A DNA stretch of 42,667 nucleotides. Source: Sphingobacteriaceae bacterium (GTDB lineage: Bacteria > Bacteroidota > Bacteroidia > B-17B0 > Aurantibacillaceae). The stretch lies in NCBI GenBank assembly GCA_023251775.1, contig JAHEYC010000023.1:1-42667 (forward strand). Reading direction: 5' to 3'. A program made the position numbers and the translations under genes. The notes under the pieces were generated by a model. It searched no databases, was not told the DNA's origin, and saw only the letters and a list, made by a program, of their open reading frames with translations. Position 1 is the first letter of the stretch. Each line of letters starts with the position of its first letter. Below are positions 4,110-30,935 of this stretch, piece by piece.

Positions 4110-5021
4110 TTATTTCCAGTCATCAACAGAAAAATCGACGATCGATCTTAATTTCTCGATATCGTCTTTAAAAAAGTTTTGTAAATATTTTCGGCAATCA
4201 TCAGGCATTGCTTCTTTTTCACTTTTAATATTCGATCTTAATAAATGAAACATTTTCAGATCATCATCCTTTTCAATATAGTGAATTGGGTCTTCTTCTC
4301 TTCGGGTTGCTTCCACAAACAGATCAAATCTATTTTGAAAATATTTCCTTAACTCCACTTGCAACTTTCTATCATGCACACTTAAACTTGTGAAACTTGG
4401 AGGCATTACAACTTTGTGATCCTCGCTCACGCCTAAAAAACGAAATACACGTTTAAAATCATTTTGCAGATCCTTTCCAAACGTTTCTGATTTAAGCATC
4501 AGCATTTGTTCTTTTGGAAAATATTCGAGGAATTTACTAAGCATTTTGTGATACAATCCTCTACCTGTATAATTATGTGGTTGTATTTCCGCCCAAATGC
4601 CTGTTTGAGCTTTAATGCGTTCTTCTTCCTTTTGTAATACGTCCCAAAAACTCAATTCTTCCAAGCCTTCGATCACTGTGTATCTGTAATTTCCCCAAGC
4701 GCGTTCGATCGGATTCCTGATCATAAAGATCAATTTTATGTCAGGCAAATGTTTATGCATGCGTTCGGCAACCTCGGGACCAAACATATAAGAAGAAGAA
4801 CGTTCGCCGATAGCTTTTTCGTCCTTTACATCTTTAAAATAGGTATCGATGTAATAATTAAAAGGCTTTTCATATTCCCATGACTTATAAAAGTAATGTG
4901 GCTCGGGGCGCATTTTTTTTGGTAAATATATTTCGGGATGATCCATCATTCCGGCCGAAAGAAAAGATGTTCCTCCGGCTGCTGCGCCGCAAATTAAAAA
5001 GTTAGGTGAACGTTTATCCAT
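4110..5021 (-). CDS. Sulfotransferase-domain protein with altered PAPS loops
   Basis: 303 residues with the sulfotransferase fold. The N-terminal 5'-phosphosulfate loop region reads CGAAAGGTSFL (11-21), and the 3'-phosphate motif reads FMIRNPIERAWGNY (99-112). In typical members the loop has a catalytic Lys (GxxKxGT) and the second motif has a Ser (RxxxxRxxS). Here those positions are Ala15 and Gly110. The overall spacing, the following helices and the NYTGRGLYHKML segment are normal for bacterial polysaccharide sulfotransferases. The ATG at 5021 follows the AsnB stop by one base. The adjacent CysC-like gene supports use of PAPS, but loss of the Lys means activity or donor is uncertain. Confidence 0.75.
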   Translation of the reverse strand: MDKRSPNFLICGAAAGGTSFLSAGMMDHPEIYLPKKMRPEPHYFYKSWEYEKPFNYYIDTYFKDVKDEKAIGERSSSYMFGPEVAERMHKHLPDIKLIFMIRNPIERAWGNYRYTVIEGLEELSFWDVLQKEEERIKAQTGIWAEIQPHNYTGRGLYHKMLSKFLEYFPKEQMLMLKSETFGKDLQNDFKRVFRFLGVSEDHKVVMPPSFTSLSVHDRKLQVELRKYFQNRFDLFVEATRREEDPIHYIEKDDDLKMFHLLRSNIKSEKEAMPDDCRKYLQNFFKDDIEKLRSIVDFSVDDWK

Positions 5022-5022
5022 T

Positions 5023-6918
5023 TTAGTTCTCTATTTTTTCGTTATTTAAGAATATCTTACACCACCACTCAAAATTCATGAACGACCAGATCAACAAGCG
5101 GTGATTTATTTTCTGGTTCATATGTTCATCAATGATCTTACTCATGTATTTTTTGCTGATAAATTCAGTGGAAGCTGTTTTTTTGTTCAATAACAATTCT
5201 TTCACGTATTCGGCATTCTCGCCACGGTACCAACTTTCATCAGGAGCCGAAAACCCTTGTTTTTTTCTATTCAATATTTTTTCAGGAATAAAATCCATCA
5301 TGGCTTTACGTAATACTGTTTTGCCATCATTATGTTCGGTATACACCGTTTTTTTATCTCTGAATTCATTCTCATCAACACGTTTCATGAATTCCAAATT
5401 CCCTAATTTATGCTTAACGGGTATTTTTTGGGCAAAATTCACAAGATCGTTATCTAAAAAAGGAAATCTTTCTTCTAGTCCATTTGCCATACTTAATTTA
5501 TCGCCAACAATTAATAAGCCCGGCAAAAATGTTTTTATTTCGAAGTACAACGAATTATTGATGTGTTGTTCGGGCGTATCATATTTTAATTTATTATTGA
5601 ACGTAAATACACGTTCAAATATTTGTCGCGGCTGATCTAATTGGATCTTTTGGTAAACGTTGTCGTTAAATAATTTATTTCTATCTCCATCCGGCACTAA
5701 GCGTTGCCAAAAATCATAATACTGATCAAAAAAATCTTTTTGATCCAAGGATCTAAAAACTCTATAGTAACGCCATGGATATCCTCCATATAATTCATCT
5801 CCACCTGTTCCTTGCAAACATACCTTCACAAATTTTGAAGCCAAACGAGAGATATAATAATTAGGATAACTCATTCCAACACGCAGATCTTCCAAATGAT
5901 TTACAACTCTTGGGAGCGACCAACTTAGATCGCCTGCATTTATTACTTGCTCGTAATGTTCGGTTTTAAAATGGTTAGCCATTAATTCGGCATCTCTTCG
6001 TTCATCATAGTTTGCTTCAACGCCTGTAACTTCACTCATATCAAAACCACATGTGAACGTACTTAATCTATTCACATTCTTAGAAGCTATGGCAGTTATG
6101 GAACCCGAATCCATACCACCTGATAAATACGATCCAACCGGTACATCCGCTATCATTTGTCTTTTTACAGCTTGTTTAAAAAGATGAGCAGTTTCTGACA
6201 CCGCATCCTCATAACTCATATTCGCATCCTCTTGTGTGAAATCAAAATCCCACCATGAATTATGCTCCACGTATTTTGAATTACGATCTATTGTTACTGT
6301 ATTAGCCGGCGGTAACATGTAAACTCCCTTAAATAATGTTTGGAACGTAAATAAATTTTGAAACGTAAAATACTCATTCAATGATTCCTTATTTAGGTCG
6401 ATCGAATAATCGGGATGCTTGATGATTGCCTTTATTTCGGAAGCAAAAACTAATGTAGTGCCATTATGCCAGTAATATAAAGGCTTTACACCATAACGAT
6501 CGCGACTTAAATATAATTTCTTTTCCTCCTTATTATAAGCAGCAATAGCGAACATACCATTCAACTTTTTGAAAAAAGATACACCGTAAGCCGAAAGTCC
6601 TTCCACTATAACTTCCGTATCAGTTGTAGAAATAAATTGGTGCCCTTGCGACATAAGATCTTTCTTCAATTCTAAAAAATTATACGCACAGCCATTAAAA
6701 ACGATCACCCATTTTCCATCTTTAGAATGCATAGGTTGTGCACCTCTGTCAGAAGTATCTAATATTGCCAAACGACGATGCGCTAAAGCAATTCCTCCAT
6801 CAATAAAATAACCTTCGCCATCAGGTCCTCTATGAGCAATAGCATCTGCCATTCGCTTTAGGTCAACCAAAGGAAAAGGTTCTCCGTTCAAATTAAATAC
6901 ACCAATTACACCGCACAT
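5023..6918 (-). CDS. asnB: Asparagine synthase (glutamine-hydrolysing) family amidotransferase
   Basis: 631 residues, normal length for the family. The N-terminal class II glutaminase has the nucleophile Cys2 (MCGVIG), HRGPDG (29-34) and LAHRRLAI (46-52). The C-terminal synthetase domain has the pyrophosphate loop SGGMDS (266-271). The usual FNGEIYN is FNGCAYN here, a variant of the glutamine-binding loop. Within polysaccharide loci such proteins usually amidate a carboxyl group on a sugar or amino-acid substituent rather than make free asparagine. That role is inferred from context. The start ATG overlaps the stop of the aminotransferase by one base (TAATG). Confidence 0.88.
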   Translation of the reverse strand: MCGVIGVFNLNGEPFPLVDLKRMADAIAHRGPDGEGYFIDGGIALAHRRLAILDTSDRGAQPMHSKDGKWVIVFNGCAYNFLELKKDLMSQGHQFISTTDTEVIVEGLSAYGVSFFKKLNGMFAIAAYNKEEKKLYLSRDRYGVKPLYYWHNGTTLVFASEIKAIIKHPDYSIDLNKESLNEYFTFQNLFTFQTLFKGVYMLPPANTVTIDRNSKYVEHNSWWDFDFTQEDANMSYEDAVSETAHLFKQAVKRQMIADVPVGSYLSGGMDSGSITAIASKNVNRLSTFTCGFDMSEVTGVEANYDERRDAELMANHFKTEHYEQVINAGDLSWSLPRVVNHLEDLRVGMSYPNYYISRLASKFVKVCLQGTGGDELYGGYPWRYYRVFRSLDQKDFFDQYYDFWQRLVPDGDRNKLFNDNVYQKIQLDQPRQIFERVFTFNNKLKYDTPEQHINNSLYFEIKTFLPGLLIVGDKLSMANGLEERFPFLDNDLVNFAQKIPVKHKLGNLEFMKRVDENEFRDKKTVYTEHNDGKTVLRKAMMDFIPEKILNRKKQGFSAPDESWYRGENAEYVKELLLNKKTASTEFISKKYMSKIIDEHMNQKINHRLLIWSFMNFEWWCKIFLNNEKIEN

Positions 6919-9054: not shown

Positions 9055-10344
9055 TTAATTATAATTCCAATTCGTATCCGGTTCTATATAACCATGCACA
9101 TCATCCCATGGATAATTCCCCTCCTTAGCATATCCCACTTTATCTACAGAAATAAAATAAACATTTTCAACCCAATCAATAGTAGAACCATTTGCCAAAT
9201 AACTTATACCAATGGTAAATGAATAATTTCCGGGAAGTAATCGTGTATTAAATTTAGCTTCGATTGTATGTTTTCCTTTATTGAGATCTCGGCCGACATA
9301 GACAGGTCCCTTTTTATCAACGGCATAAAGAACAGGTTGCCCCAAGGTTGTTCCAACATTAATATTTATCATCACATTTTTTAGATCCTTGATGGCTTCT
9401 AATTCCAATGCGACTTTAAACGGTTGATTAAATGCAAGTTTGTCGATAATATTTTCGTCGCTATCTTTTATAACTATTTTTCTAAAATACGCTTCGCCAT
9501 TTGTGTACTGTCTGTAAAAATCAGCCGGTATTTCTCCGGTTAGTTGAACATTCTTATTTTCACTTAAATAAGATTCAATTACCTTAGAGGTAGATCCGAT
9601 CTCTTGAATTTGACCATGTTTTAAATACATGCATGTGCTGCACAAATTTTGAACAGCGCTTAAATTATGACTTACAAATAAAACGGTTCTTCCGGAGTTA
9701 GAAACGCTTTTCATTTTACCAATGCATTTATCTTGAAATTCCTGATCACCAACTGCGAGAACCTCATCCACAATTAAAATTTCAGGTTCCAGATGCGCAG
9801 CCACTGCAAATCCTAAACGCACCATCATTCCCGACGAATAACGTTTCACCGGTGTATCAATATATTTTGCAATACCACTGAATTCAATGATCTCATCTAA
9901 TTTATCAACGATTTCCTCTTTGGTCATTCCTAAAATCGCGCCATTCAAAAAAATATTCTCTCTTCCGGTAAGATCCTGATGAAAACCTGTTCCTACTTCA
10001 AGCAAAGCCGCTATTCTCCCTTTTATTTTTACCTCGCCTGTTGTTGGTGATGTGATCTGAGAAAGAATTTTTAAAAGTGTAGACTTTCCTGCGCCATTTT
10101 TTCCAATGATGCCCAACACTTCTCCCTTTTTTACTTCAAAATTTATATCCTTCAGCGACCAAACATAATCACTTCCTCCTGCTTTCGAACGATCGTTCAC
10201 ATCAGCCAATTTCAAATACGGATCTTGTTTACCTCTGATCTTATACCACCAACGATTAAGATCGTGCGAAATAGTTCCCGTACCAAGTTCACCTAAGCGA
10301 TACACTTTTGAAAGATCCTCTATTTTTAAAACAACTTCTTGCAT
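9055..10344 (-). CDS. wzt: Polysaccharide ABC exporter ATPase with C-terminal glycan-binding domain (Wzt type)
   Basis: 429 residues. The ABC domain has Walker A GKNGAGKST (81-89), signature YSSGMMVRL (169-177) and Walker B ILIVDEVLAVGD (189-200), with the extra N-terminal 25-60 insert of the TagH/Wzt group. After about residue 240 comes a roughly 180-residue beta-rich domain typical of long Wzt proteins, which in E. coli O8/O9a recognises the capped non-reducing end of the glycan before export. That implies a chain-terminating modification here. Start ATG and Wzm stop overlap (TAATG), as expected for two subunits of one transporter. Confidence 0.9.
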   Translation of the reverse strand: MQEVVLKIEDLSKVYRLGELGTGTISHDLNRWWYKIRGKQDPYLKLADVNDRSKAGGSDYVWSLKDINFEVKKGEVLGIIGKNGAGKSTLLKILSQITSPTTGEVKIKGRIAALLEVGTGFHQDLTGRENIFLNGAILGMTKEEIVDKLDEIIEFSGIAKYIDTPVKRYSSGMMVRLGFAVAAHLEPEILIVDEVLAVGDQEFQDKCIGKMKSVSNSGRTVLFVSHNLSAVQNLCSTCMYLKHGQIQEIGSTSKVIESYLSENKNVQLTGEIPADFYRQYTNGEAYFRKIVIKDSDENIIDKLAFNQPFKVALELEAIKDLKNVMININVGTTLGQPVLYAVDKKGPVYVGRDLNKGKHTIEAKFNTRLLPGNYSFTIGISYLANGSTIDWVENVYFISVDKVGYAKEGNYPWDDVHGYIEPDTNWNYN

Positions 10345-11192
10345 TATACCGAATCCATGAATGATCTTTCCACTTTATTAAAAATAATAAGACCAATGAT
10401 CAAAAAAATAATTGTAAATACTAAACTGTACGCAAGATGCATCCAATTAAATTCTCCCACGCCAAGAAATGCATATTTAAATGTTTCGATGATGCTTGTA
10501 GTTGGATTTGCCAAGATGATCCATTTATATTTTTGCGGGACCATGGATAAAGGATAAACAATGGGCGATGCATACATGAGTAATTGCACGCCAAACACTA
10601 CTAAAAATTTAAGATCGCGATATTTGGTTGTTAGAGAAGAAATGATAACACCAAATGCTAAACCTAAAAGTCCCATTAGAATGATCAAGAACGGTACGAG
10701 TAGCAAAACACTATTGGGATGAATTTGATCACTTCTCATTAGATAATACACCCATACAAGAATAAAAAGAAAGAACTGAACTCCCATTTTTAAAAGATTT
10801 GAGAACACTACAGAAAGCGGTACGATCATTCGCGGGAAATAAACTTTTCCGAAAATATTGGCATTAGCTGTGAATGTATCGGATGTTTTTGTTAGCGTAT
10901 CCGAAAAATAATTCCAAAGGGTGATACCACTTAAATAAAATAATACTTGCGGAACGCCATCGGTTGGTATGTGCGCCAAATTACCAAAGATCACTGTAAA
11001 TGTAATGGCGGTAATGATGGGTTGTAAAAAGAACCAAAGCGGACCAAGAATAGTTTGTTTGTAAAGCGCCACAAAATCGCGTTTTACAAAAAGGAATAAC
11101 AGATCTTTATAACGCATGATCTCACCTAAGTGCAATTTATGCCAACTTGCTTTTGGTTTAATTATAAGGTCCCAGTTCTGTTTAGCGTTCAT
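10344..11192 (-). CDS. wzm: Polysaccharide ABC exporter permease (Wzm type)
   Basis: 282 residues, an ABC-2 type permease with about six membrane helices. The N-terminal stretch has RYKDLLFLFVKRDFVALYKQ, the amphipathic entry helix of Wzm/TagG/KpsM permeases. The segment TILGPLWFFLQPIITAI and the C-terminal NPTTSIIETFKYAFLG are also standard. It forms the channel with the downstream Wzt. The start ATG overlaps the upstream GT-C-like stop by four bases (ATGA). Confidence 0.92.
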   Translation of the reverse strand: MNAKQNWDLIIKPKASWHKLHLGEIMRYKDLLFLFVKRDFVALYKQTILGPLWFFLQPIITAITFTVIFGNLAHIPTDGVPQVLFYLSGITLWNYFSDTLTKTSDTFTANANIFGKVYFPRMIVPLSVVFSNLLKMGVQFFLFILVWVYYLMRSDQIHPNSVLLLVPFLIILMGLLGLAFGVIISSLTTKYRDLKFLVVFGVQLLMYASPIVYPLSMVPQKYKWIILANPTTSIIETFKYAFLGVGEFNWMHLAYSLVFTIIFLIIGLIIFNKVERSFMDSV

Positions 11193-14426: not shown

Positions 14427-14927
14427 TTATTTATTATTGTTCTTTACCAATACCTCTTCGGGCACTTTAACGGTAAGTGAATATCCAATACTTTCGATGG
14501 TGATACGATACACATTTTCTTTTGCAACCGCTTTTACCGAACCTGTTAGTCCTTTGAATGGTCCGTATTTAATTATCACCTTATCTCCTTTTTGGAGTGA
14601 TTGAGAGAAAGCGCCTTCCACAAAATATCCTTTTTCTTCAATTGATCTTAATGCGGTGATCTCGATATCGCGCACCGATGCGTCGCCACCGTTGTAGCGC
14701 ACATAATTTAAAACACCTTGCGCTTTAAAAACAGTATCGCGTTCTTTGTCGCTCACTTTTACAAATACATAACCATTGATCATGGGTGTGCTCACTGTTT
14801 TTAAACGATCACTCCATCGGCGTTTCTCTGTTCGTAATGGCACATAACTTTCCAATCCAAGATCGGTTAAACGTTGGTTCACTTTTTTTTCGCTGCGTGA
14901 TGCTACATATAATACTCTCCAGTTCAT
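14427..14927 (-). CDS. UpxY/RfaH-like transcription antiterminator (NusG family)
   Basis: 166 residues. The N-terminal NGN domain starts WRVLYVASRSEKKV (3-16) and includes PMINGYVFVKV (48-58). The C-terminal KOW domain reads KGDKVIIKYGPFKGLTGSV (113-131). NusG paralogues of this kind head capsule operons in Bacteroides (UpxY), where they bind paused polymerase in the leader and let it read through the long operon. Here the gene is third in the minus-strand run and directly precedes the sugar and export genes, so it probably controls their full-length transcription. A 113-base structured leader lies just upstream. Confidence 0.88.
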   Translation of the reverse strand: MNWRVLYVASRSEKKVNQRLTDLGLESYVPLRTEKRRWSDRLKTVSTPMINGYVFVKVSDKERDTVFKAQGVLNYVRYNGGDASVRDIEITALRSIEEKGYFVEGAFSQSLQKGDKVIIKYGPFKGLTGSVKAVAKENVYRITIESIGYSLTVKVPEEVLVKNNNK

Positions 14928-15040: not shown

Positions 15041-15571
15041 TTACTTATTCCATATCAACAAGGGATGAAGATCCTTTTGTTGTATGGTTTTAAGATCAAA
15101 TTCGCCTGAGCGGAAACAGCTGAAAGTAATTTTTTTATTCAGTTTTTTCTCGGCCTTACCTATCAATTCTTCCAAGTACGGTATGTTAATATCCCCAACA
15201 AAAACCAACTCAATTGTATCGCTTTCTAAACCCTTTGCTAATTGTCCAACCAAATAAACTTTTTCAAGGTTACCGATGTGTTTCATCACATAATCCACCA
15301 AATGATTGATGCCTGTGATCTTCATCAACATTTGTTGTATATCATTGAATAGGAGATGCTTTTGATTGGCTTTGAAGAGTTTTTTATTGCCCTCTGCATA
15401 GGAGGTTAAAAATCCGGCTTTTTCGAACTTATTGAGTTCCAGTCTAATAGAATTTGTAGAGTCGCCGAATTCTTCTTCAAGTCCCCTAAGATAAGACACT
15501 GAGTTTCCGTTCAAAAAGAATTTTAAGAGGATCTTGATCCTCGTTTTGGAAGATATAAGAATGTCGAACAT
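15041..15571 (-). CDS. Winged-helix regulator with nucleotidyltransferase-like C-terminal domain
   Basis: 176 residues. Residues 1-70 form a winged helix: SSKTRIKILLKFFLNG, then SYLRGLEEEFGDSTNSIRLE as recognition region, and a KAGFLTSYAEGNKKLF wing. Residues 104-160 (VYLVGQLAKGLESDTIELVFVGD and a following LNKKITFSCF strand) resemble the minimal nucleotidyltransferase fold found at the C-terminus of some regulators in polysaccharide loci. The usual GS-x-D catalytic signature is not clear, so it may be a ligand-binding relic. It lies between the kinase gene and the antiterminator, and a 27-base palindrome sits one base upstream of its ATG, pointing to autoregulation. Confidence 0.7.
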   Translation of the reverse strand: MFDILISSKTRIKILLKFFLNGNSVSYLRGLEEEFGDSTNSIRLELNKFEKAGFLTSYAEGNKKLFKANQKHLLFNDIQQMLMKITGINHLVDYVMKHIGNLEKVYLVGQLAKGLESDTIELVFVGDINIPYLEELIGKAEKKLNKKITFSCFRSGEFDLKTIQQKDLHPLLIWNK

Positions 15572-15626: not shown

Positions 15627-18002
15627 TTATTTTCGGTAGCCGTAGCCCTTACCATAACCATAACCGTAGCCATAACCATAGCTATAGCCGTAGCCCTTGT
15701 AGTAATAGCGCTTAGATATTTTTCGCACACCGTTAAGCACGAAGAAGAAATTCTGGATCTTATTTGTTTCAATAAGTTCGGTAACAAAGTTAACCGTACG
15801 TTTTGTAGATGTGTTTGCATTCAGAACAAATAATGTAGCATCCACAAATTGTATGAGATAGATCGAATCAGATAATAATCCTGCAGGAGGAGAATCGATG
15901 ATCACATAATCAAAATTATCTTTCGCATATTTCAATGCTTCTTTTAATTTTTCGGAAAGAACAAAGTCAGATGGATTTGGAGGAATTGGTCCTGCAAACA
16001 TACACCATAAATTTTGGATCTTCGTTTGCACAACTGTTTCTTCAACCGCATTTAATCCTGAGATAAATGTGGTGATCCCTTTTTCTGCTAATGTATAACC
16101 TAATGATTTATACACTTTAGGTTTATGAAGATCTAATTCCACAATGATGGTCTTCTTACCGGACTTTGCAAGTGTAGCAGCAAGGTTAACACTGGTAAAA
16201 GTTTTTCCTTCGGCCGGAGAAAAAGATGTCACTAAAAATGTTTGCGCATTTTGTCCTGCATTGGCGTATTGCAAATTCGTTCGAATATTCCTGAACGATT
16301 CGGCAATGCGCGAATTAGGCTGATCCTCCACGATCACCTCTCCGCTCACGCGATCTTTCAAGAAAGGAATAACGCCAAGGGATGGGATCTCAGATAATTC
16401 TTTTAGATGCTCAATTGTTCTGATCTTAGAGAAAATTGTTCTCACCAAAATAATAAAAACGCTTAATGCAAAACCAATGGTGATGAACATTCGCTTTATA
16501 GCGCCTCTATCGGGACTAATGATCCCGGTATTTCTTGGCATCTCAATAACTTTTGCTTCAGCAACTATACTTGCTTTTGCGATACGTGTATTCGCTTTTT
16601 TCTCTAACAAGAAATTATAAATAGCTTCGTTCACATTTAGTTTACGTTGGATCCCCAATAGATCTTGTTGCTTTGGCGGAATAGATTTTGCTTCTGCAAC
16701 ATAGCGTGCGATCTCTGAATTGATATTCTCTATCTTCAACTTGGTTGCACCTCTCACGTTATTGATATAGATCAAAAGATCTTGCTTTATTTTCTTAATA
16801 CTGCTAATGTAATCCTGAATAATGGGATTAACTTCTGTTGCCAAATTGTACAATCTGTTCAACTCAATTTGCTTTGTGTAAAGATCTGAAACTGCTTTCG
16901 ACATGAATCCATCCTTTTCGGTAATGTAAACCGTTGGTGGTAAAAATTGCGGATCTTTATCCTCGATGATATATTTTTCGAGATCATTCAACGCCTTTAC
17001 TTGAAGTTGCGCTTCGGATCGAGAGTTATCGTACATACCGATCTTTGTAAGAAAATCATTTTCTTCCCAGCCAAGATTGATGATAGATTTTTTTTGTTTA
17101 TAGATCTGTAATGTATCAACACTTTGCTTAAGCAAAATGGAAATCTCGTCCAATTGTTTATCAATGAACTCAATTGTTTTTTCGTTAAGGTCGTACTTTG
17201 ATTTTAATTTACTGAACAAATATTCCTGATTCAACGAATCAAGTATCAATACAGCTCTGTCGGGAATGATATCCTTTAATGAAACTTCTAAGATATTGGT
17301 ATAATCAGGATTAAAAACGTTAATATCTTCAATGATCCTTGAGATCAAAAAATCAGTAGAGTGTACTACGAACTGATAATAAATTTCTTTTACCGTGTTG
17401 AGTTTTGCGTTCTTAAAAGTTTCTGACTTGTTCACCGAAAGATTAAAATCAAGATCGATCAAGGCCTTATCGAATTCTCCTTTTTTGATCACTTTCTCAT
17501 TTTGCTTCATGTAAGAAAGTTCATATTCTTTGTCGCTTAAAATGCGAAAATCAATTACGCCTTCATACAGATCAGGATTAATGGTATTAACCACAACGTT
17601 AAATGGTGTTCCGCCAAACTGTTCAGTTCTTCTTACCTTTCCAACAATGAAATACGAAACTTCCAATTTATCGCGCAGTTTATCTACAACACGATTTAGA
17701 AGGTCATACGAAAGTAATACGCGTTTTTCATTGGAATTATCAACGAAACTTTGGGCGCCATAAAATGAAGCATCACTCACCACATTATTCTCGTAATACG
17801 CGTCGTTATTTTGGAGCAATACCTGGGTTGATACTTTGTATACAGAAATGAGGGTGTATGTATAAAAAATTCCGGCGAAATAGAATAACGGGACCACTAT
17901 TAATGGAATCCACCAATTTGATTTAAATACCCTAAGTATTAAGTTAAAATCCTTTGGAGAAATTATGGATTGCTTCTTGGAGCTCACTGTAACATGATAC
18001 AC
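15627..18002 (-). CDS. wzc: Polysaccharide co-polymerase/tyrosine autokinase (Wzc type)
   Basis: Up to 791 residues. A Wzz-like N-terminal part has a membrane helix at about 31-53, a long coiled periplasmic region, and a second helix near 495-515. The cytoplasmic BY-kinase follows: Walker A SPAEGKT, Walker A' VELDLHKPK and Walker B YVIIDSPPAG. The tail from KRYYYKG onward is a Gly-Tyr repeat with 12 Tyr, the expected autophosphorylation cluster. Such proteins control chain length and gate export. Here the partner exporter is Wzm/Wzt, and no outer-membrane Wza is in the window. The start is GTG at 18002 or GTG at 17987. A TAnnTTTG box at 18009-18002 ends on the first GTG and would favour the second. 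It is the first gene of the minus-strand operon. Confidence 0.9.
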   Translation of the reverse strand: MYHVTVSSKKQSIISPKDFNLILRVFKSNWWIPLIVVPLFYFAGIFYTYTLISVYKVSTQVLLQNNDAYYENNVVSDASFYGAQSFVDNSNEKRVLLSYDLLNRVVDKLRDKLEVSYFIVGKVRRTEQFGGTPFNVVVNTINPDLYEGVIDFRILSDKEYELSYMKQNEKVIKKGEFDKALIDLDFNLSVNKSETFKNAKLNTVKEIYYQFVVHSTDFLISRIIEDINVFNPDYTNILEVSLKDIIPDRAVLILDSLNQEYLFSKLKSKYDLNEKTIEFIDKQLDEISILLKQSVDTLQIYKQKKSIINLGWEENDFLTKIGMYDNSRSEAQLQVKALNDLEKYIIEDKDPQFLPPTVYITEKDGFMSKAVSDLYTKQIELNRLYNLATEVNPIIQDYISSIKKIKQDLLIYINNVRGATKLKIENINSEIARYVAEAKSIPPKQQDLLGIQRKLNVNEAIYNFLLEKKANTRIAKASIVAEAKVIEMPRNTGIISPDRGAIKRMFITIGFALSVFIILVRTIFSKIRTIEHLKELSEIPSLGVIPFLKDRVSGEVIVEDQPNSRIAESFRNIRTNLQYANAGQNAQTFLVTSFSPAEGKTFTSVNLAATLAKSGKKTIIVELDLHKPKVYKSLGYTLAEKGITTFISGLNAVEETVVQTKIQNLWCMFAGPIPPNPSDFVLSEKLKEALKYAKDNFDYVIIDSPPAGLLSDSIYLIQFVDATLFVLNANTSTKRTVNFVTELIETNKIQNFFFVLNGVRKISKRYYYKGYGYSYGYGYGYGYGKGYGYRK
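15636..15707 (-). repeat. Hexanucleotide repeat coding the Gly-Tyr tail of the kinase
   Basis: Imperfect tandem six-base units (GGYTAY on the minus strand) encode alternating Gly-Tyr, broken by Lys at two places and Ser at one, with three consecutive Tyr at the start. Twelve Tyr codons lie within 72 bases. TAT and TAC alternate, so the units are not identical. The repeat is in frame and unit changes would add or remove Gly-Tyr pairs without a frameshift. Confidence 0.8.
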
Positions 18003-18033: not shown

Positions 18034-18064
18034 TTGCAGGGTAAAAATAATTATCGTATTTTTG
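18034..18064 (+). promoter_or_regulatory. Promoter of the exosortase operon
   Basis: TTG at 18034-18036, a 20-base spacer, and TATTTTTG at 18057-18064 match the Bacteroidota -33/-7 pattern (TTG, 17-23 bases, TAnnTTTG). The predicted RNA start is about 18070, leaving a leader of about 25 bases before the PID-CTERM ATG at 18095. Confidence 0.6.
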
Positions 18065-18094: not shown

Positions 18095-18313
18095 ATGAGC
18101 TTCAAAAAACATATCCTTACTGTATTTCTTGTAATTATCAATCTAATTGCTTTTGCTGCTGCTCCACCACCGCCTCCTGGTGCAGGACCTGGTTGTTGGC
18201 CTCCTCCTTGTATGCCAATTGATGGTGGAATAACTCTACTTATGGCTGCCGGCGCGGCTTACGGCGCTAAGAAGATCTACGATTCCAGAAAAAAAACTGA
18301 AGCGGATCAGTAA
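18095..18313 (+). CDS. PID-CTERM protein, small exosortase substrate
   Basis: 72 residues. A signal peptide covers about 1-22 (two Lys, then a hydrophobic core ending AFA). Next is a short stretch of five consecutive Pro and more Pro/Gly with two Cys (34 and 39) in CWPPPC. Pro41-Ile42-Asp43-Gly-Gly follows, then a hydrophobic helix (about 46-58) and a basic tail with RKK. Motif, helix and basic tail are the tripartite C-terminal signal of exosortase substrates, and the Pro-Ile-Asp form is the PID-CTERM type of Bacteroidota. The exosortase gene starts three bases downstream. If cut near the PID motif, the released chain would be only about 20 residues. The role of that peptide is unknown. Confidence 0.85.
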   Translation: MSFKKHILTVFLVIINLIAFAAAPPPPPGAGPGCWPPPCMPIDGGITLLMAAGAAYGAKKIYDSRKKTEADQ

Positions 18314-18316
18314 ATC

Positions 18317-18841
18317 ATGTGGGCAGATCTTAAAAAAAGTGCCTTATTAAAGTTTCTAGTTTCTTCCGGCGTAACTTACCTCATCCTTTATCTCATTTAT
18401 CAGTTCATTGTACGGCGTTATACGTATTACGATCAAAAATTCATAGGGACCATTATCACGGGGAGTGATTACTTTTTTCAACTATTTGATTATAAGACAT
18501 TTACATCTTTACAAGATAGAGATTTACAGGTGATCGGTATTGATGGTTCCACCGGTGTTTGGGTGGGCTCTAATTGCAATGCTATTTCGCTTTTTATGCT
18601 TTTTATTGTTTTTATTGTTTGGTATCCCGGGCATCAAACGTCAAAATTATGGTTCATTCCTTTTGGATTAGTAACCATACATATTCTAAATATTATTCGT
18701 GTTATTGGATTGGTTTTGATCTCAAAAAACGCACCACAATATCTCGATTTTAATCACACGTATACATTCACTTTTATTGTTTACGCTTACATTTTTTTCC
18801 TTTGGATGTGGTGGGTAAATAAGTTCGCCGATAAGAAATAA
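18317..18841 (+). CDS. Exosortase/archaeosortase family protein (XrtX-like)
   Basis: 174 residues with about five membrane helices. The three expected active-site residues are present in order: Cys87 in GSNCNAI, Arg128 in LNIIRV and His147 in FNHTYTF. The family is a membrane cysteine transpeptidase that cleaves C-terminal sorting signals outside the inner membrane. The compact length and the PID-CTERM neighbour fit the XrtX type of Bacteroidota. That subtype name is from memory and not confirmed by a profile search. It is three bases after the substrate gene and nine before the next membrane gene. The adjacent divergent Wzc gene ties it to polysaccharide export. Confidence 0.85.
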   Translation: MWADLKKSALLKFLVSSGVTYLILYLIYQFIVRRYTYYDQKFIGTIITGSDYFFQLFDYKTFTSLQDRDLQVIGIDGSTGVWVGSNCNAISLFMLFIVFIVWYPGHQTSKLWFIPFGLVTIHILNIIRVIGLVLISKNAPQYLDFNHTYTFTFIVYAYIFFLWMWWVNKFADKK

Positions 18842-18849
18842 TTAAATTT

Positions 18850-19356
18850 ATGAAGATCAATTGGAAATATTTTGTTCTGTTCTTTTTGATGTTCGCCATA
18901 TTAGGTTATTACCGCGAAAAATTCTTTGTCTCCATCAATCACCTTATGTTCATTAAATATTGGGGTCACGATAACGGTCCGCCCCTTGATCCCTTCATTC
19001 ATTTTTTAGATCAATTCAGTTACGACACACTTTATTATTTAAAATACCCTTCTACTGTTCTGTCTATCATTTTGTTTGGTGTATTAAGCTATTTGGCTGT
19101 GCGTTATATTTTAGGGACAAAAAAATTATGGCGTTGGGTTGTTTATTCTTACCTCATTTTGTTAACTTTAGCAGGATTAAGTATGGTGTTCGGATATCTT
19201 GTTAACCAACGTTTACAAGATGACGAATACACTCTTAGCCGATGGTTGGTTGGAATAATTCAATCGCCCATCATAACAATTATCATTATAGCATCGCATC
19301 AATTATTAACGCAACAAAATTTAGCAAGCAATGAAAAAAGATCCGATCATTTTTAA
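18850..19356 (+). CDS. Four-helix membrane protein associated with the exosortase
   Basis: 168 residues with four hydrophobic segments (about 7-22, 68-88, 95-118 and 133-150). Between the first and second lies a conserved-looking extracytoplasmic loop that starts [13 protein letters not shown] and has an Asp/Pro-rich part. I know no enzymatic motif in it. Its position directly after the exosortase suggests a partner in substrate handling, and annotated exosortase-associated membrane proteins of this kind exist in Bacteroidota. The start ATG 18850 is 8 bases after the exosortase stop. The last 26 bases overlap glyA in another frame. Confidence 0.75.
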
Positions 19357-25181: not shown

Positions 25182-26699
25182 ATGAGAACCCTTTTATTAT
25201 CGTTTGCACTTCTTTTTTCAATAGCATCCTTTGCTCAAACAGGTTATGATGTAAAATTCCAGATCAAGAATAATACGGATACTATGATGTACTTAGTTCG
25301 TACAATTTTTGATAAACAATACATTTCGGATACCTGTAAAAAAGTAAAAAATGGCTTGGTGCAATTTAAAGGCAAAAAAACATTAGATAAAGGTGTTTAT
25401 ACTTTAGTGAGTCAGGAGAAATCGGTTTACTTTGATTTTTTAATTGATGACTCTTATAGCTTTACCATAAATTTTGATCGTAATGATATTGTGAATACCT
25501 TAAAGTCGAACGGCAGTAAAGAAAATGAAGATATGTTCGCTTACCTTAAATTCATGACCAATAAAAATGCGGAGTTCATGAAAGCCAGAGATCAAACCAA
25601 AAAAATGAGCAAGGCCGACAGCGCTAAATTTGTAGCTGAAAAGTTTGAGGTAATGACAAAGGACGTTCAAAAATTTGAAGAAGCTTTTATGAAAAAAGTG
25701 AAAGGAACTTTTACTTACGACTTTTTGAATATGAAAGCAGAGAAAGAAGCTAAGGAAGTTCCAAAAGCATCAAACGGGAGACCGGATAGCTTATGGCGTT
25801 ATTATTATTACAAGAATCATTTCTTTGAAGGTGTTGATTTTAAAGATAAACGTATTGTTACCATTCCATTCTTTGATGATCGCGTAAAACGTTATTTGGA
25901 TGGTGTGATCTATCAATACTCTCCTGATAGTTTGATAAAAGAATTAGATTGGATGTTGGCTCAATGTGTGCCAAATGAATTAGTGTATAATTTATTGTTG
26001 GGTCATTTTACTTACAAATACGAACAAGATAAACGCATGAGCTTTGATAAAGTGTTTGTGCATTTAGCTGATAATTATATTATAAATGGTAAAGCAACTG
26101 AAGTGTATTCGGAAGAGACCGTTAAGGCCATTAAAAAACGCGTAGATATTTTACGCAATTTATTGATCGATTCAAAAGCGAATGAACTTTACATGATCGA
26201 TACAACGGATGCACGTAAAGTAATTAAAATGGGATTTGATACTGTTATCACAAGCAAAGGCGCAACTGAATTATACTATAAGAATATTGATAAGTTAACT
26301 CCACTCTTTAAAACTCTATACATGGTGAATGCAAAATTCACTGTCTTGGTGTTTTGGGATGTAGATTGCAGTCATTGCCAAACCGAAATTCCAAAATTGC
26401 ACGAAGAGCTTAAAAAAGTAAAAGGTAAGATCGATTATAAAGTAGTTTCGGTTTATACCAAAGAAGAATTTGAAAAATGGCGTAAATACATCATTGACAA
26501 AAAACTTACCGACTTTTATCATTTGTACGATCCTATCCACTTGAATAATATCAAAGATAAATACGATATCATTTCAACTCCCGTGATCTATGTACTCGAT
26601 AAAGATAAATTGATCAAAGGAAAAAAGATCGCGGCCGATCAAGTGGTTGGTCTTTTAGAATATTTGAACAGTATTGATAAAACTCCGGGTAAAAAATAA
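25182..26699 (+). CDS. Secreted thioredoxin-fold protein (TlpA/DUF5106-like), copy 1
   Basis: 505 residues. Signal peptide 1-18 (ending SIASFAQ). The N-terminal third is a beta-rich domain like the DUF4369 domain of Bacteroidota thiol-disulfide proteins (KFQIKNNTDTMMYLVR), the middle is helical, and the C-terminal 130 residues form a thioredoxin fold. The redox motif is Cys396-Ser-His-Cys399 in FWDVDCSHCQTEIPKL, and a cis-Pro follows in STPVIYV. It should act on disulfides in the periplasm or at the outer membrane. It is followed after 10 bases by a paralogue of exactly the same length, so the pair arose by tandem duplication. Confidence 0.85.
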   Translation: MRTLLLSFALLFSIASFAQTGYDVKFQIKNNTDTMMYLVRTIFDKQYISDTCKKVKNGLVQFKGKKTLDKGVYTLVSQEKSVYFDFLIDDSYSFTINFDRNDIVNTLKSNGSKENEDMFAYLKFMTNKNAEFMKARDQTKKMSKADSAKFVAEKFEVMTKDVQKFEEAFMKKVKGTFTYDFLNMKAEKEAKEVPKASNGRPDSLWRYYYYKNHFFEGVDFKDKRIVTIPFFDDRVKRYLDGVIYQYSPDSLIKELDWMLAQCVPNELVYNLLLGHFTYKYEQDKRMSFDKVFVHLADNYIINGKATEVYSEETVKAIKKRVDILRNLLIDSKANELYMIDTTDARKVIKMGFDTVITSKGATELYYKNIDKLTPLFKTLYMVNAKFTVLVFWDVDCSHCQTEIPKLHEELKKVKGKIDYKVVSVYTKEEFEKWRKYIIDKKLTDFYHLYDPIHLNNIKDKYDIISTPVIYVLDKDKLIKGKKIAADQVVGLLEYLNSIDKTPGKK

Positions 26700-26709
26700 A
26701 ATTAAAATT

Positions 26710-28227
26710 ATGATCCGCTCAGCCAAACTTAAATTATCTATCTGTCTTAGTCTTTTGTGTTCATTAGCATTTGCGCAAGGCGGATATGATATTCGTTTCA
26801 ACATGAAAGGCAATAAAGATACCGTGATGTATCTTGTAAAATATGTGTGGGATCAACAATACATTGCCGATACATGTAAAAAAATAAAGAACGGGCAAGT
26901 TGTTTTTAAAGGTAAAACAGATCTTGATAAAGGTGTTTATGTTTTGGTGAGTCAAGGCAAATCCATTTATTTCGACGTGTTTGTGAACGAGAATCAAAAG
27001 TTCACCATCAATTGCGATAATAACGAAATTGTAAGTAGTCTTAAAGTTATTGGAAGTAAAGAGAATGAAACTTTTTTTAGCTATATCAAATTCATCACCG
27101 GAAAGAATCAAGAGTTCGGTAAATTTCAAGCGCAAACAAAAGGGATGAATAAAGCCGATAGCACAAAATTCATATTGGATAAAATAAAATTTATGAATGA
27201 TGGTGTGGTGCAGTTTGAGAAGGACTTTATGGAACAAACAAAAGGCACCTATGTGAATGATGTAATGAACTTAAAAACAGAAAAGAATCCAACAGATATC
27301 CCAAAAGCATCTAATGGCAGACCGGATAGTGTTTATCAGTACTATTGGTATAAAAGTCATTTCTTTGATGGGATCGACTTTACCGATGATCGCACCATTC
27401 GCACACCATTTTTTGACGATCGCGTAAAACGTTATTTTGAAACTGTTATTTTACAAGCGCCTGATACCGTTATTCAGGAAATTGATAAGATACTTGCAAA
27501 ATGTAAACCCGATGGTTTGGTGTATAATTTATTGATCGGACATTTTACCTATAAATACGAACAAGATAAACGCATGGGCTTTGATAAAGTGTTTGTGCAT
27601 TTATGCGATAAATATATCATTAGCGGTAAGGCCAAAAAAGTGTACGATGAAGAAACTGCTAAGAAAATTAAAGAACGCGCGGATATTCTAAGAAATATTT
27701 TGTTGGAAGCCAAAGCGCCCGAGATCTATATGATAGATACTATTCACGGACGAGACGTAATGAAATTAGGATTTGATACAGCAAAAACAAGCGAATCGAT
27801 CACAAAATTATATTACAAACATATTGATAAACTCACGCCATGGTTCAAAACCGTTTATGGTGTAAGCGCAAAATATACAGTATTAGTTTTTTGGTCGGTA
27901 GATTGCGGACATTGCCAAACCGAGATCCCCAAATTAAATGATACTTTAAAGACCTTAAAAGGTAAAATAGATTTTAAAGTGATGGCGATCTATACCAAAG
28001 AGGATTTTGAGGCTTGGAGAAAATTCATCATTGATAAAAAATTAGATTTCATTAATGTGTTCGATCCTGTTCACATCAATGATCTTAAGAATAAATACGA
28101 TATTTATTCAACGCCTGTAATTTATATTCTTGACAGGGATAAAAAGATCAAAGCAAAACGTTTAGGCTCTGAACAAGTAATAGAGATGCTGAAGTACTTT
28201 GAGAAGATGGATAAGGATAAGAAGTAA
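26710..28227 (+). CDS. Secreted thioredoxin-fold protein (TlpA/DUF5106-like), copy 2
   Basis: 505 residues from ATG 26710, the same length as copy 1 and similar along the whole chain. A TTG at 26674 would add a charged 12-residue stretch ahead of the signal peptide and overlap copy 1, so it is not used. The signal peptide ends at SLAFAQ. The redox motif is Cys399-Gly-His-Cys402 in FWSVDCGHCQTEIPKL, with STPVIYI as cis-Pro segment. The two copies differ in the residue inside the CxxC (Ser against Gly), which often tunes redox potential. The stop lies two bases from the stop of the convergent surface-protein gene, with no terminator between them. Confidence 0.85.
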   Translation: MIRSAKLKLSICLSLLCSLAFAQGGYDIRFNMKGNKDTVMYLVKYVWDQQYIADTCKKIKNGQVVFKGKTDLDKGVYVLVSQGKSIYFDVFVNENQKFTINCDNNEIVSSLKVIGSKENETFFSYIKFITGKNQEFGKFQAQTKGMNKADSTKFILDKIKFMNDGVVQFEKDFMEQTKGTYVNDVMNLKTEKNPTDIPKASNGRPDSVYQYYWYKSHFFDGIDFTDDRTIRTPFFDDRVKRYFETVILQAPDTVIQEIDKILAKCKPDGLVYNLLIGHFTYKYEQDKRMGFDKVFVHLCDKYIISGKAKKVYDEETAKKIKERADILRNILLEAKAPEIYMIDTIHGRDVMKLGFDTAKTSESITKLYYKHIDKLTPWFKTVYGVSAKYTVLVFWSVDCGHCQTEIPKLNDTLKTLKGKIDFKVMAIYTKEDFEAWRKFIIDKKLDFINVFDPVHINDLKNKYDIYSTPVIYILDRDKKIKAKRLGSEQVIEMLKYFEKMDKDKK

Positions 28228-28229
28228 TT

Positions 28230-30701
28230 CTATTTATAAAGCGTTACTTGTCCTGTGATAGTTTTTCCTTTCGACTTTGTAGTTGAGTAATCAATGATCC
28301 AAGTATAATTATCATCTTTCAGATCTGCTCCTTTAAAAGTTCCGTCCCAACCATTAGCCATATCATTGGTCTCAAATAATTTCTCGCCCCAACGATCAAA
28401 GATGCGCATTCTAAATTCGCTTACTTGAATTCCTTTGGCAGTGAATTTATCATTTAATCCATCTAAGTTCGGCGTAAAACTATTTGGCACGTAAATAACA
28501 GGACTTTCAGAGATCTTTACTTCTTTGTGAGTTGTATCAGCACAACCATGCGTATTTTGTACAACTAAAAATGCTTTGTAAACCGCTGCTTCATCTCTAT
28601 ATGTATGATCAGGATCTTTTTGCAACGAAAGTGCGCCATCGCCAAAATACCAATACCAATTATTTATGTTATCGGTGCTCTCATCCGTAAATTTTACGGT
28701 TGGCTCATATACATCAAACTCACCGTTCTTCATTTCGCCACCAATACTAAATTGCGCTTTTGGTTTTGCATACGCTTCAAAACTTACACGTGTTTGATTA
28801 CTGCATCCTTTGTTATCTGTAACTTGCAATGCTACGGTGTAAATTCCTGCCTCGGTAAATGTGTGTTTTGAAAAATTAGGATTTTGGTCCGCCAATTTAT
28901 CGTTGATGCTCCAGTTATAATTTGTGATACTCGAATTTGAAGTGCTGTTCATGTTGATCATTAAAGGTGCACAACCATTATTAGGAACATCGGTGATCTG
29001 AATTGATGGTGCTTTATGAACGAACACATTTGTAATTGCCGATGAAGAACAATTTCCATTTGTTCCGATCACAGTATAACTTGTAGTGGCTAAAGGTTTC
29101 ACATCATTAATGGCTCCCCAAGTTCCTGTGCTCCAAAAATAACTATTAGCACCACCGGCATTAAGTTGCGTGTATTGTCCCTCGCAAATACTGTGCGAAG
29201 GTGTAATGGTCATTGTTGGATAACTATAAACAGCAACCGTAAATGGAATACTTACTTTGCAATTATTTGCATCGGTAATAATGAATGCGCTATAAATTAA
29301 TCCTTGATCAACCGGTGCTAAATTTGTGTTTTGAGTTGTGGCTCCATCGTGTAACCATTGAAGTGTGTAAGGTGTAACTCCTCCCGAAAAATTACTTGTT
29401 AATAATGTTGATTGGCCTAAACAAAGAGACGTTGGTGTTTGGATACTTGCATTCAAAAGAGTTGGCTCAGTTATTTGAACTGTTTTTGTTGTGATACAAC
29501 CACCCGCGTTTAAAACTGCTACTGTATAAATTCCCGCACTCAAACTTGTAGCTTGTGCAATATTTTGTCCGCTGCTCCAAGTATAGGTAAATGGTGAAGC
29601 AGTTCCACTTGCTACTGCTAAAGCACTTCCGCTTGGGTTTCCATGACAATCAACATTAATTATATTAGTGATAGTTAATGGAGAGCCCGGATTAACTTTT
29701 ATAGTAAATGTGCTTGTGTTTGGAACAGGGATCCCGCAATTACCATCAAAGTGTGAAAAATTATTTAAGGTTAATGTCACCGTATAATTTCCAACGGTTG
29801 AATAGGTATACGAAGGATTTTGTTGCGTACTTGTATTACCATCTCCAAAATCCCAATGATAACTGATAATAGAATCGGCTATTCCCATTCCCGAAAAATT
29901 AACGGCTAAAGGTGCGCATCCATTTGTAACATTTGCACTTGAAGTAACAACAACTGTTTTTTTAATGAACGAGCACATATCCACATGAGGAATACCAACA
30001 TTTGGAGGCGTTAAAGAATTTGTTAGAAAAGAAACATTTGCATTTGCAAAATTAAGCGACCAAAGATCCGCACCCCCGTCAATACCATATAATCTTCCAT
30101 CTTTTCCATATGCTAAACCATTATTAGGAAAATATGCACTGCATAATTGCGAACTCAAAACTGTTCCGTTAGAATCTAATTGATATAAGGTTGGTTTTTG
30201 ATTAAGAACCACTGTATTCAAACAATAAACAGAACAATTCTTAGGATTAAATATAATATCGCGACAATTGGTTGGAAGATTAAATGTTTTTACAATGCTA
30301 TTTGAATTTACATTATAATAATAAACAACATTACCGATCGAAAAGATCAAACGTCCGTAATTATCAAATGAGGCCGACACACATGTTCCTAAAACGCCCG
30401 ATGCAACAAGTGTATTATTACCGCTGGCATCCATTCTGTAAACATCGCCATTCATATTCCCTTTATAATAGATGTATCCGTCAATTGGATTTGCAGCCAA
30501 ACAATTATAATAATTGTTACCGCTAATATTACAGACAACAGTTGTAGAAAATGAACTTGGATATCCTCCTACCGAGATCAGTTTTTGATTTTGTCCTGCA
30601 ACTCCATTCACATAATATAAATTTCCGGTGAACGGAAACGTTTGAGAGACGCATAAGCTTGCACTCAAAACAGCGAACAGTATTAGTAGAAAATTTTTCA
30701 T
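28230..30701 (-). CDS. PKD/SprB-repeat surface protein with type IX (gliding-type) sorting domain
   Basis: 823 residues from ATG 30701 (an upstream TTG at 30722 is ignored). Signal peptide 1-20. Residues 20-240 resemble repeated strands of a beta-propeller. Next come a PKD domain (YHWDFGDGNTS...YTYSTVGNYTVTL), a SprB-type repeat (CHGNPSGSA...TYTWSSGQ...GIYTV), Ig-like segments, a second PKD-like region (WYWYFGDGA) and a C-terminal domain of about 94 residues. That last part has YVPNSFTPNLDGLND, RIFDRWGEKLFET and WDGTFKG, which define the type B sorting domain for type IX secretion. It should be exported across the outer membrane and kept at or released from the surface. Ligand unknown. Confidence 0.9.
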   Translation of the reverse strand: MKNFLLILFAVLSASLCVSQTFPFTGNLYYVNGVAGQNQKLISVGGYPSSFSTTVVCNISGNNYYNCLAANPIDGYIYYKGNMNGDVYRMDASGNNTLVASGVLGTCVSASFDNYGRLIFSIGNVVYYYNVNSNSIVKTFNLPTNCRDIIFNPKNCSVYCLNTVVLNQKPTLYQLDSNGTVLSSQLCSAYFPNNGLAYGKDGRLYGIDGGADLWSLNFANANVSFLTNSLTPPNVGIPHVDMCSFIKKTVVVTSSANVTNGCAPLAVNFSGMGIADSIISYHWDFGDGNTSTQQNPSYTYSTVGNYTVTLTLNNFSHFDGNCGIPVPNTSTFTIKVNPGSPLTITNIINVDCHGNPSGSALAVASGTASPFTYTWSSGQNIAQATSLSAGIYTVAVLNAGGCITTKTVQITEPTLLNASIQTPTSLCLGQSTLLTSNFSGGVTPYTLQWLHDGATTQNTNLAPVDQGLIYSAFIITDANNCKVSIPFTVAVYSYPTMTITPSHSICEGQYTQLNAGGANSYFWSTGTWGAINDVKPLATTSYTVIGTNGNCSSSAITNVFVHKAPSIQITDVPNNGCAPLMINMNSTSNSSITNYNWSINDKLADQNPNFSKHTFTEAGIYTVALQVTDNKGCSNQTRVSFEAYAKPKAQFSIGGEMKNGEFDVYEPTVKFTDESTDNINNWYWYFGDGALSLQKDPDHTYRDEAAVYKAFLVVQNTHGCADTTHKEVKISESPVIYVPNSFTPNLDGLNDKFTAKGIQVSEFRMRIFDRWGEKLFETNDMANGWDGTFKGADLKDDNYTWIIDYSTTKSKGKTITGQVTLYK

Positions 30702-30935
30702 TTGTAGATTTTTGTTAAACAAAGGTGTACAAGTTTAAAGCCAATGTAAATGCCATATACGGTCACATTCTTTGGAAAGCAAGGTCTTATTTAAATCCTT
30801 TAAGTATTTGTATCTATTTGATAATCATTCATTTATGATAATTAAGTTTTTTACTTTTTTCAATACTCAGCCCTGCCTTAATTTCAATGATTTCTTTTTC
30901 AAAAAGGTTATCTTCGATATAAATTGTGATCCGCA

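Follow-up and report, generated by a model that had tools for sequence, protein, structure and literature searches.

The window, a 42,667-nucleotide stretch of DNA from a Sphingobacteriaceae bacterium of the order B-17B0 (Bacteroidota), encodes a 72-residue PID-CTERM precursor directly ahead of the exosortase XrtX, and in this order every genome with the enzyme carries exactly one such peptide, always with the same pair of cysteines. We propose that the precursor is a dedicated mini-substrate of XrtX, which would be processed into a disulfide-looped, attached peptide of about 20 residues that serves the polysaccharide of the adjacent genes; we judge the chances of this proposal to be about even. 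Here we document the anatomy of the peptide, its conservation, its one-to-one pairing with XrtX and its linkage to a Wzc-like gene. Its predicted export by way of a signal peptide and its predicted recognition by XrtX follow from family membership.

A short PID-CTERM precursor beside an exosortase gene

The open reading frame translates as MSFKKHILTVFLVIINLIAFAAAPPPPPGAGPGCWPPPCMPIDGGITLLMAAGAAYGAKKIYDSRKKTEADQ (Table 1). Its primary sequence holds several landmarks: firstly, a hydrophobic N-terminus with a putative signal-peptidase site of the A19-x-A21 type, which would place the mature start at A22; secondly, a proline-rich stretch that holds Cys34 and Cys39, with four residues between the two; thirdly, Pro41-Ile42-Asp43, after which come GG, a helix and a tail with KK/RKK. 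The NCBIfam profile PID_CTERM (NF046080) matches residues 41–63 at 43.5 bits (cut-off 26, E 2e-11), and a Pfam search of the 72-residue peptide gave no match. The peptide does not fit the MYXO-CTERM description (invariant-Cys signature, arginine-rich tail, myxosortase): it has two cysteines and a Trp-Pro loop, a Lys/Arg tail, an exosortase neighbour and an NCBIfam match to PID_CTERM only. Because the PID_CTERM score exceeds its cut-off and a DNA pattern for CWPPPC lies far above its reversed control in the order (66 occurrences in 76 genomes, against 1 for the control in the same search), sequence comparison confirms the frame as a real, short predicted precursor and not a chance reading. A TAnnTTTG element like that of the putative promoter occurs within 150 nt upstream of the peptide gene in 77 of 129 homologues, as compared to 15.5 in shuffles.

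The XrtX gene starts 3 bp after the peptide frame. NF046081 is the best-scoring exosortase type for its product, at 169.6 bits, 0.4 under the cut-off of 170 (a cut-off passed in 56 of the 76 order genomes); the exosortase/archaeosortase superfamily profile TIGR04178 matches at 46.7 bits, above its cut-off of 23, and no other protein of the window's genome scores above cut-off as an exosortase. C87, R128 and H147 are invariant in 101 of 101 aligned sequences, and these putative catalytic residues are in line with the Cys/Arg/His motifs described for EpsH (PMC1569441). We found no solved structures for XrtX. The XrtX-associated protein matches NF046082 with E 4e-8 at 33.1 bits, well under the cut-off of 75.

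Table 1. Coordinates of the peptide gene, its parts and its neighbours in the window.
Feature	Position	Strand	Basis
PID-CTERM mini-protein, 72 aa, predicted XrtX substrate	18095..18313	+	Sole PID-CTERM match in the genome at E<=10
N-terminal signal peptide, residues 1-21	18095..18157	+	A-F-A site, inferred from sequence reading
Predicted mature peptide AAPPPPPGAGPGCWPPPCMP, ~20 residues	18158..18217	+	Sequence reading and homologue lengths; cut near Pro41 assumed
CWPPPC loop, Cys34-Cys39	18194..18211	+	Invariant positions in homologues
PID-CTERM sorting signal: PIDGG, hydrophobic helix, basic residues	18215..18283	+	NF046080
Putative Bacteroidota promoter, TAnnTTTG type: TTG (18034-18036) and TATTTTTG (18057-18064)	18034..18064	+	Sequence reading
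Exosortase XrtX, 174 aa	18317..18841	+	NF046081, TIGR04178
Putative catalytic residues of XrtX: C87, R128, H147	18575-18577, 18698-18700, 18755-18757	+	
XrtX-associated membrane protein	18850..19356	+	NF046082; position conserved among related loci
Wzc-type polysaccharide co-polymerase / tyrosine autokinase, divergent	15627..18002	-	TIGR01007, Pfam Wzz, GNVR
UpxY-family antiterminator of surface-polysaccharide operon	14427..14927	-	NF033644, 131.8 bits
Wzt/Wzm-type polysaccharide ABC exporter	9055..11192	-	ATPase 9055-10344 with Wzt_C, membrane part 10344-11192

One enzyme and one predicted substrate per XrtX-bearing genome

The window's genome is 98.5% complete, and a search relaxed to E<=10 still returned a single PID-CTERM match. 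Across a sample of 76 genomes of the order, each at least 80% complete, PID_CTERM matched in 62, always exactly once and in a short frame; the CWPPPC pattern added three genomes and a peptide alignment search four, giving 69. The genomes with XrtX also number 69 and are the very same ones, with one peptide each, and both cysteines and the tryptophan are kept in all of them. The peptide set was thus assembled by PID model, DNA pattern or alignment, and it agrees with the independent XrtX list.

Neither peptide nor XrtX was found in the other 7 of the 76. We considered the joint loss of peptide, XrtX and orthologous Wzc in these seven as evidence and dropped it: all seven also lack a match at E<=1e-60 to glyA, a housekeeping gene that adjoins the peptide locus, so that a contig absent from the assembly accounts for the gap no less well than co-loss does. 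The seven are probably assembly gaps, not losses.

Conservation of the cysteine loop

Among 127 distinct homologous peptides of canonical spacing, C-W-P-P-P-C, the next proline and the aspartate are invariant, while the remainder of the mature region varies among P, G, A and S; this set was chosen by motif and is hence circular for loop conservation, and two less circular checks were used, namely the order set described above and the search from the tryptophan described below. CWPPPC is encoded with every synonymous codon form among homologues, which indicates that selection acts on the protein. A pattern search starting at the tryptophan (WPPPC-PIDGG) found 117 further genomes or metagenome-assembled genomes across Bacteroidota lineages, and a cysteine precedes WPPPC in 117 of 117 true matches though it was absent from the search pattern. 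The lone remaining match, in Ligilactobacillus, holds no such peptide and was taken as chance. CWPPPC by itself, outside the order, gave 41 matches in 26 of 394 phylum genomes (a sample that includes the window's own genome), near the level of the reversed control, and no PID motif followed these matches in the loci fetched outside the window's genome. The relatives bearing named hits are all uncultured, known from metagenome or single-cell assemblies.

Within the order, the loop reads CWPPGTC in one genome (G044) and CWP[MV]C in three (G053, G055 and G056), the cysteine pair being kept in each, and the sorting motif changes from PIDGG to PADNG in two (G017 and G033), where CWPPPC is unchanged. 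The preliminary description had given meaning to the two cysteines and proposed an alignment of homologues to see if they and the proline run are kept; the cysteine pair is well supported, both being invariant together with the tryptophan, and loop length is variable. Because the loop is kept nearly letter for letter in relatives beside its own processing enzyme, the peptide probably has a job at the cell surface and is not just a remnant.

A near-constant motif beside a cleavage site also looks like a recognition sequence, and CWPPPC stands directly before PID in all relatives. It might thus belong to an XrtX recognition site that is enlarged in this lineage, on a peptide with no activity beyond marking processing. 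We consider this improbable: XrtX in other families is paired with Cys-less PID peptides; the loop persists unaltered where the sorting motif changes, and both cysteines stay where loop length varies; and there would be little to keep a dedicated enzyme in the genome if its only substrate were inert.

A second alternative is that one cysteine receives a lipid, either ahead of the cut or following it, as has been suggested for MYXO-CTERM, and forms a lipid anchor with no disulfide loop. It draws on the position of Cys39, two residues ahead of the presumed cut, and on the invariant Cys next to the site that is required for myxosortase cleavage (PMC11980579). This alternative seems quite unlikely here. 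A lipid site needs one cysteine, whereas both cysteines and the tryptophan are invariant at fixed or nearly fixed spacing; myxosortase, moreover, belongs to a different enzyme family, and Cys-less PID peptides are found where the genome encodes an exosortase of the window's type. A disulfide would be the simplest reading, because two cysteines are kept despite a variable loop length.

Tiny substrates are the rule for PID-CTERM

The precursors of Cys-loop homologues are 55–83 residues long (median 72), and a simple signal-peptide heuristic puts their mature length at ~22 residues (range 11–35). These lengths support the earlier claim of a mature part of only about 20 residues, and among the homologues, which we examined for long ectodomains without conserved cysteines, there were none of that kind. 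Shortness had also been presented as an exception to usually large exosortase substrates. This does not hold for PID-CTERM: in a phylum-wide sample of 150 open frames (median 80 residues), 149 do not exceed 200 residues, so that tiny substrates are the rule for this class. The sole long candidate is a 995-residue frame ending in VPIDGEVWVLLAGG (genome G241, locus L331, C1:2167132-2167203).

Most PID-CTERM peptides sampled elsewhere in the phylum are Cys-less (for example QPGLPSAPSQAPIDGG); the class therefore does not need a cysteine loop for its basic function, which counts against our proposal. Other Bacteroidota families (loci L034-L061) have up to 9 PID-CTERM mini-proteins per genome (for example QPGLPSAPSQAP-IDGG), mostly away from XrtX and with a predicted Cys-less mature part of ~12–16 residues; they would be a second kind of tiny exosortase substrate. 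One genome of a different family (G120, locus L302, ~4626-5064) encodes a PID-CTERM peptide with CGPPFGPPC-PIDGG, again a cysteine pair flanking a proline-rich loop with an aromatic residue, and this peptide gene adjoins genes for XrtX, the XrtX-associated protein and a Wzc-like protein.

Polysaccharide genes around the peptide

We counted neighbours in 125 distinct loci, taking as denominators the loci with enough sequence. The gene immediately after that of the peptide is XrtX in 100 of 113, a divergent Wzc-like gene precedes the peptide gene in 70 of the 92 testable loci, and Wzm/Wzt-type exporter genes stand farther along in 12 of the 25 with at least 6 kb upstream. The roles suggested in the preliminary description (anchor, primer, cap or signal) are conjectural; among possible functions, this context favours a polysaccharide role for the predicted peptide, although linkage to Wzc by itself is no proof of shared function.

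In genus g9 the peptide gene is separated from XrtX yet still beside Wzc, which is in favour of our proposal. This arrangement would also suit an uncleaved peptide that remains in the membrane, a small protein whose periplasmic Pro/Cys head is a regulatory partner of Wzc or the exporter, and small membrane proteins often regulate their neighbours. The peptide bears a curated exosortase sorting signal, however, and XrtX is present in every order genome with the peptide even when the two are unlinked, which makes this reading very unlikely. A secreted pheromone is barely credible: the peptide is short, secreted and disulfide-capable by sequence, but its motif is near-identical across many genera and families, which argues against a species-specific signal and is unlike strain-specific pheromones, and no receptor gene was recognised beside the peptide gene.

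The Wzc-like kinase of the window ends in a Tyr/Gly-rich tail, YYYKGYGYSYGYGYGYGYGKGYGYRK (15627-15710, minus strand), presumably an autophosphorylation cluster. A 176-residue protein (15041-15571, minus strand), whose gene recurs next to Wzc or UpxY in many related loci, has no significant Pfam match and a weak ArsR-like resemblance; it is a possible regulator of the locus.

Proposed role and relation to known systems

In the course that we propose, signal peptidase would remove about 21 residues after export and XrtX would cut near Pro-Ile-Asp, yielding a Pro/Gly-rich peptide of ~20 residues that ends in Cys-Trp-Pro-Pro-Pro-Cys-x-Pro. Its cysteines would most likely form a small disulfide loop displaying the tryptophan and prolines, and its new C-terminus would probably be linked to an envelope acceptor, as in proposals for other sortase-like systems. 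The peptide would then serve the polysaccharide of the adjacent Wzc and Wzm/Wzt, most likely by holding or organising the polymer at the surface. A bolder version, which we regard as doubtful, is that XrtX joins the Cys-loop peptide covalently to the polysaccharide or to its lipid carrier. The product would be a surface glycan capped or anchored by a peptide, general in the order and found in further Bacteroidota lineages as well, with the loop as a redox-dependent clasp or sugar-binding head. With one enzyme and one product of ~20 residues, the whole mature molecule plus its attachment could be weighed by mass spectrometer, which would bear on the question of what exosortases of bacteria add where they have cut a substrate.

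The polysaccharide link draws on gene order and on two analogies: the PEP-CTERM protein PepA turns exopolysaccharide that was soluble into a polymer bound to the cell (PMC9850573), and Flavobacterium johnsoniae without xrtF forms much less biofilm (PMC10936215). Both concern exosortases of other types, whose substrates differ, so the function they suggest for the peptide is by analogy.

PID-CTERM and XrtX are already known as computational families, and the sorting signal, enzyme and associated protein described here resemble all three of their profiles (NF046080, NF046081 and NF046082), with the enzyme just under its cut-off and the associated protein well under; short substrates are usual in that class, as here. 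Compared with PID-CTERM elsewhere, where sampled peptides are mostly Cys-less and sometimes present in several copies, the order has an invariant Cys-Trp-Pro-Cys loop and one substrate per genome, with XrtX and Wzc adjacent. PEP-CTERM/EpsH systems (Haft et al., 2006; PMC1569441) share the tripartite C-terminal signal, the Cys/Arg/His membrane enzyme and the link to exopolysaccharide loci, but in some lineages a single genome encodes many of their substrates, as against one tiny substrate with a PID motif. XrtF of F. johnsoniae, which is needed for biofilm and colonisation, is likewise a related Bacteroidota exosortase with an associated membrane protein (PMC10936215); no PID-CTERM peptide was seen beside an XrtF-like gene in the Flavobacterium-like loci inspected. 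MYXO-CTERM shares an invariant cysteine beside a C-terminal processing signal and differs in its protease family, its large surface receptor client and its cysteine, a presumed lipid site (PMC11980579).

We found no papers on CWPPPC or PID-CTERM in the open-licence literature searched, where the conserved Cys-loop clade, its presence wherever the order's locus is assembled, the pairing of one enzyme with one mini-substrate and the tie to Wzc appear undescribed. If our proposal is true, the polysaccharide locus of an uncultured group gains a conserved protein component, and the peptide pattern may guide the search for substrates of XrtF.

Other genes in the window

Two consecutive genes at 25182-28227 (plus strand) encode proteins that resemble each other, each with a thioredoxin-like domain at its C-terminus, the first matching Pfam Thioredoxin_8 and the second judged by eye; they are likely a tandem duplication. 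Beside them, a PKD-repeat protein (28230-30722, minus strand) carries a CHU_C type IX secretion signal, so that another route for sorting proteins to the surface probably exists in this organism.
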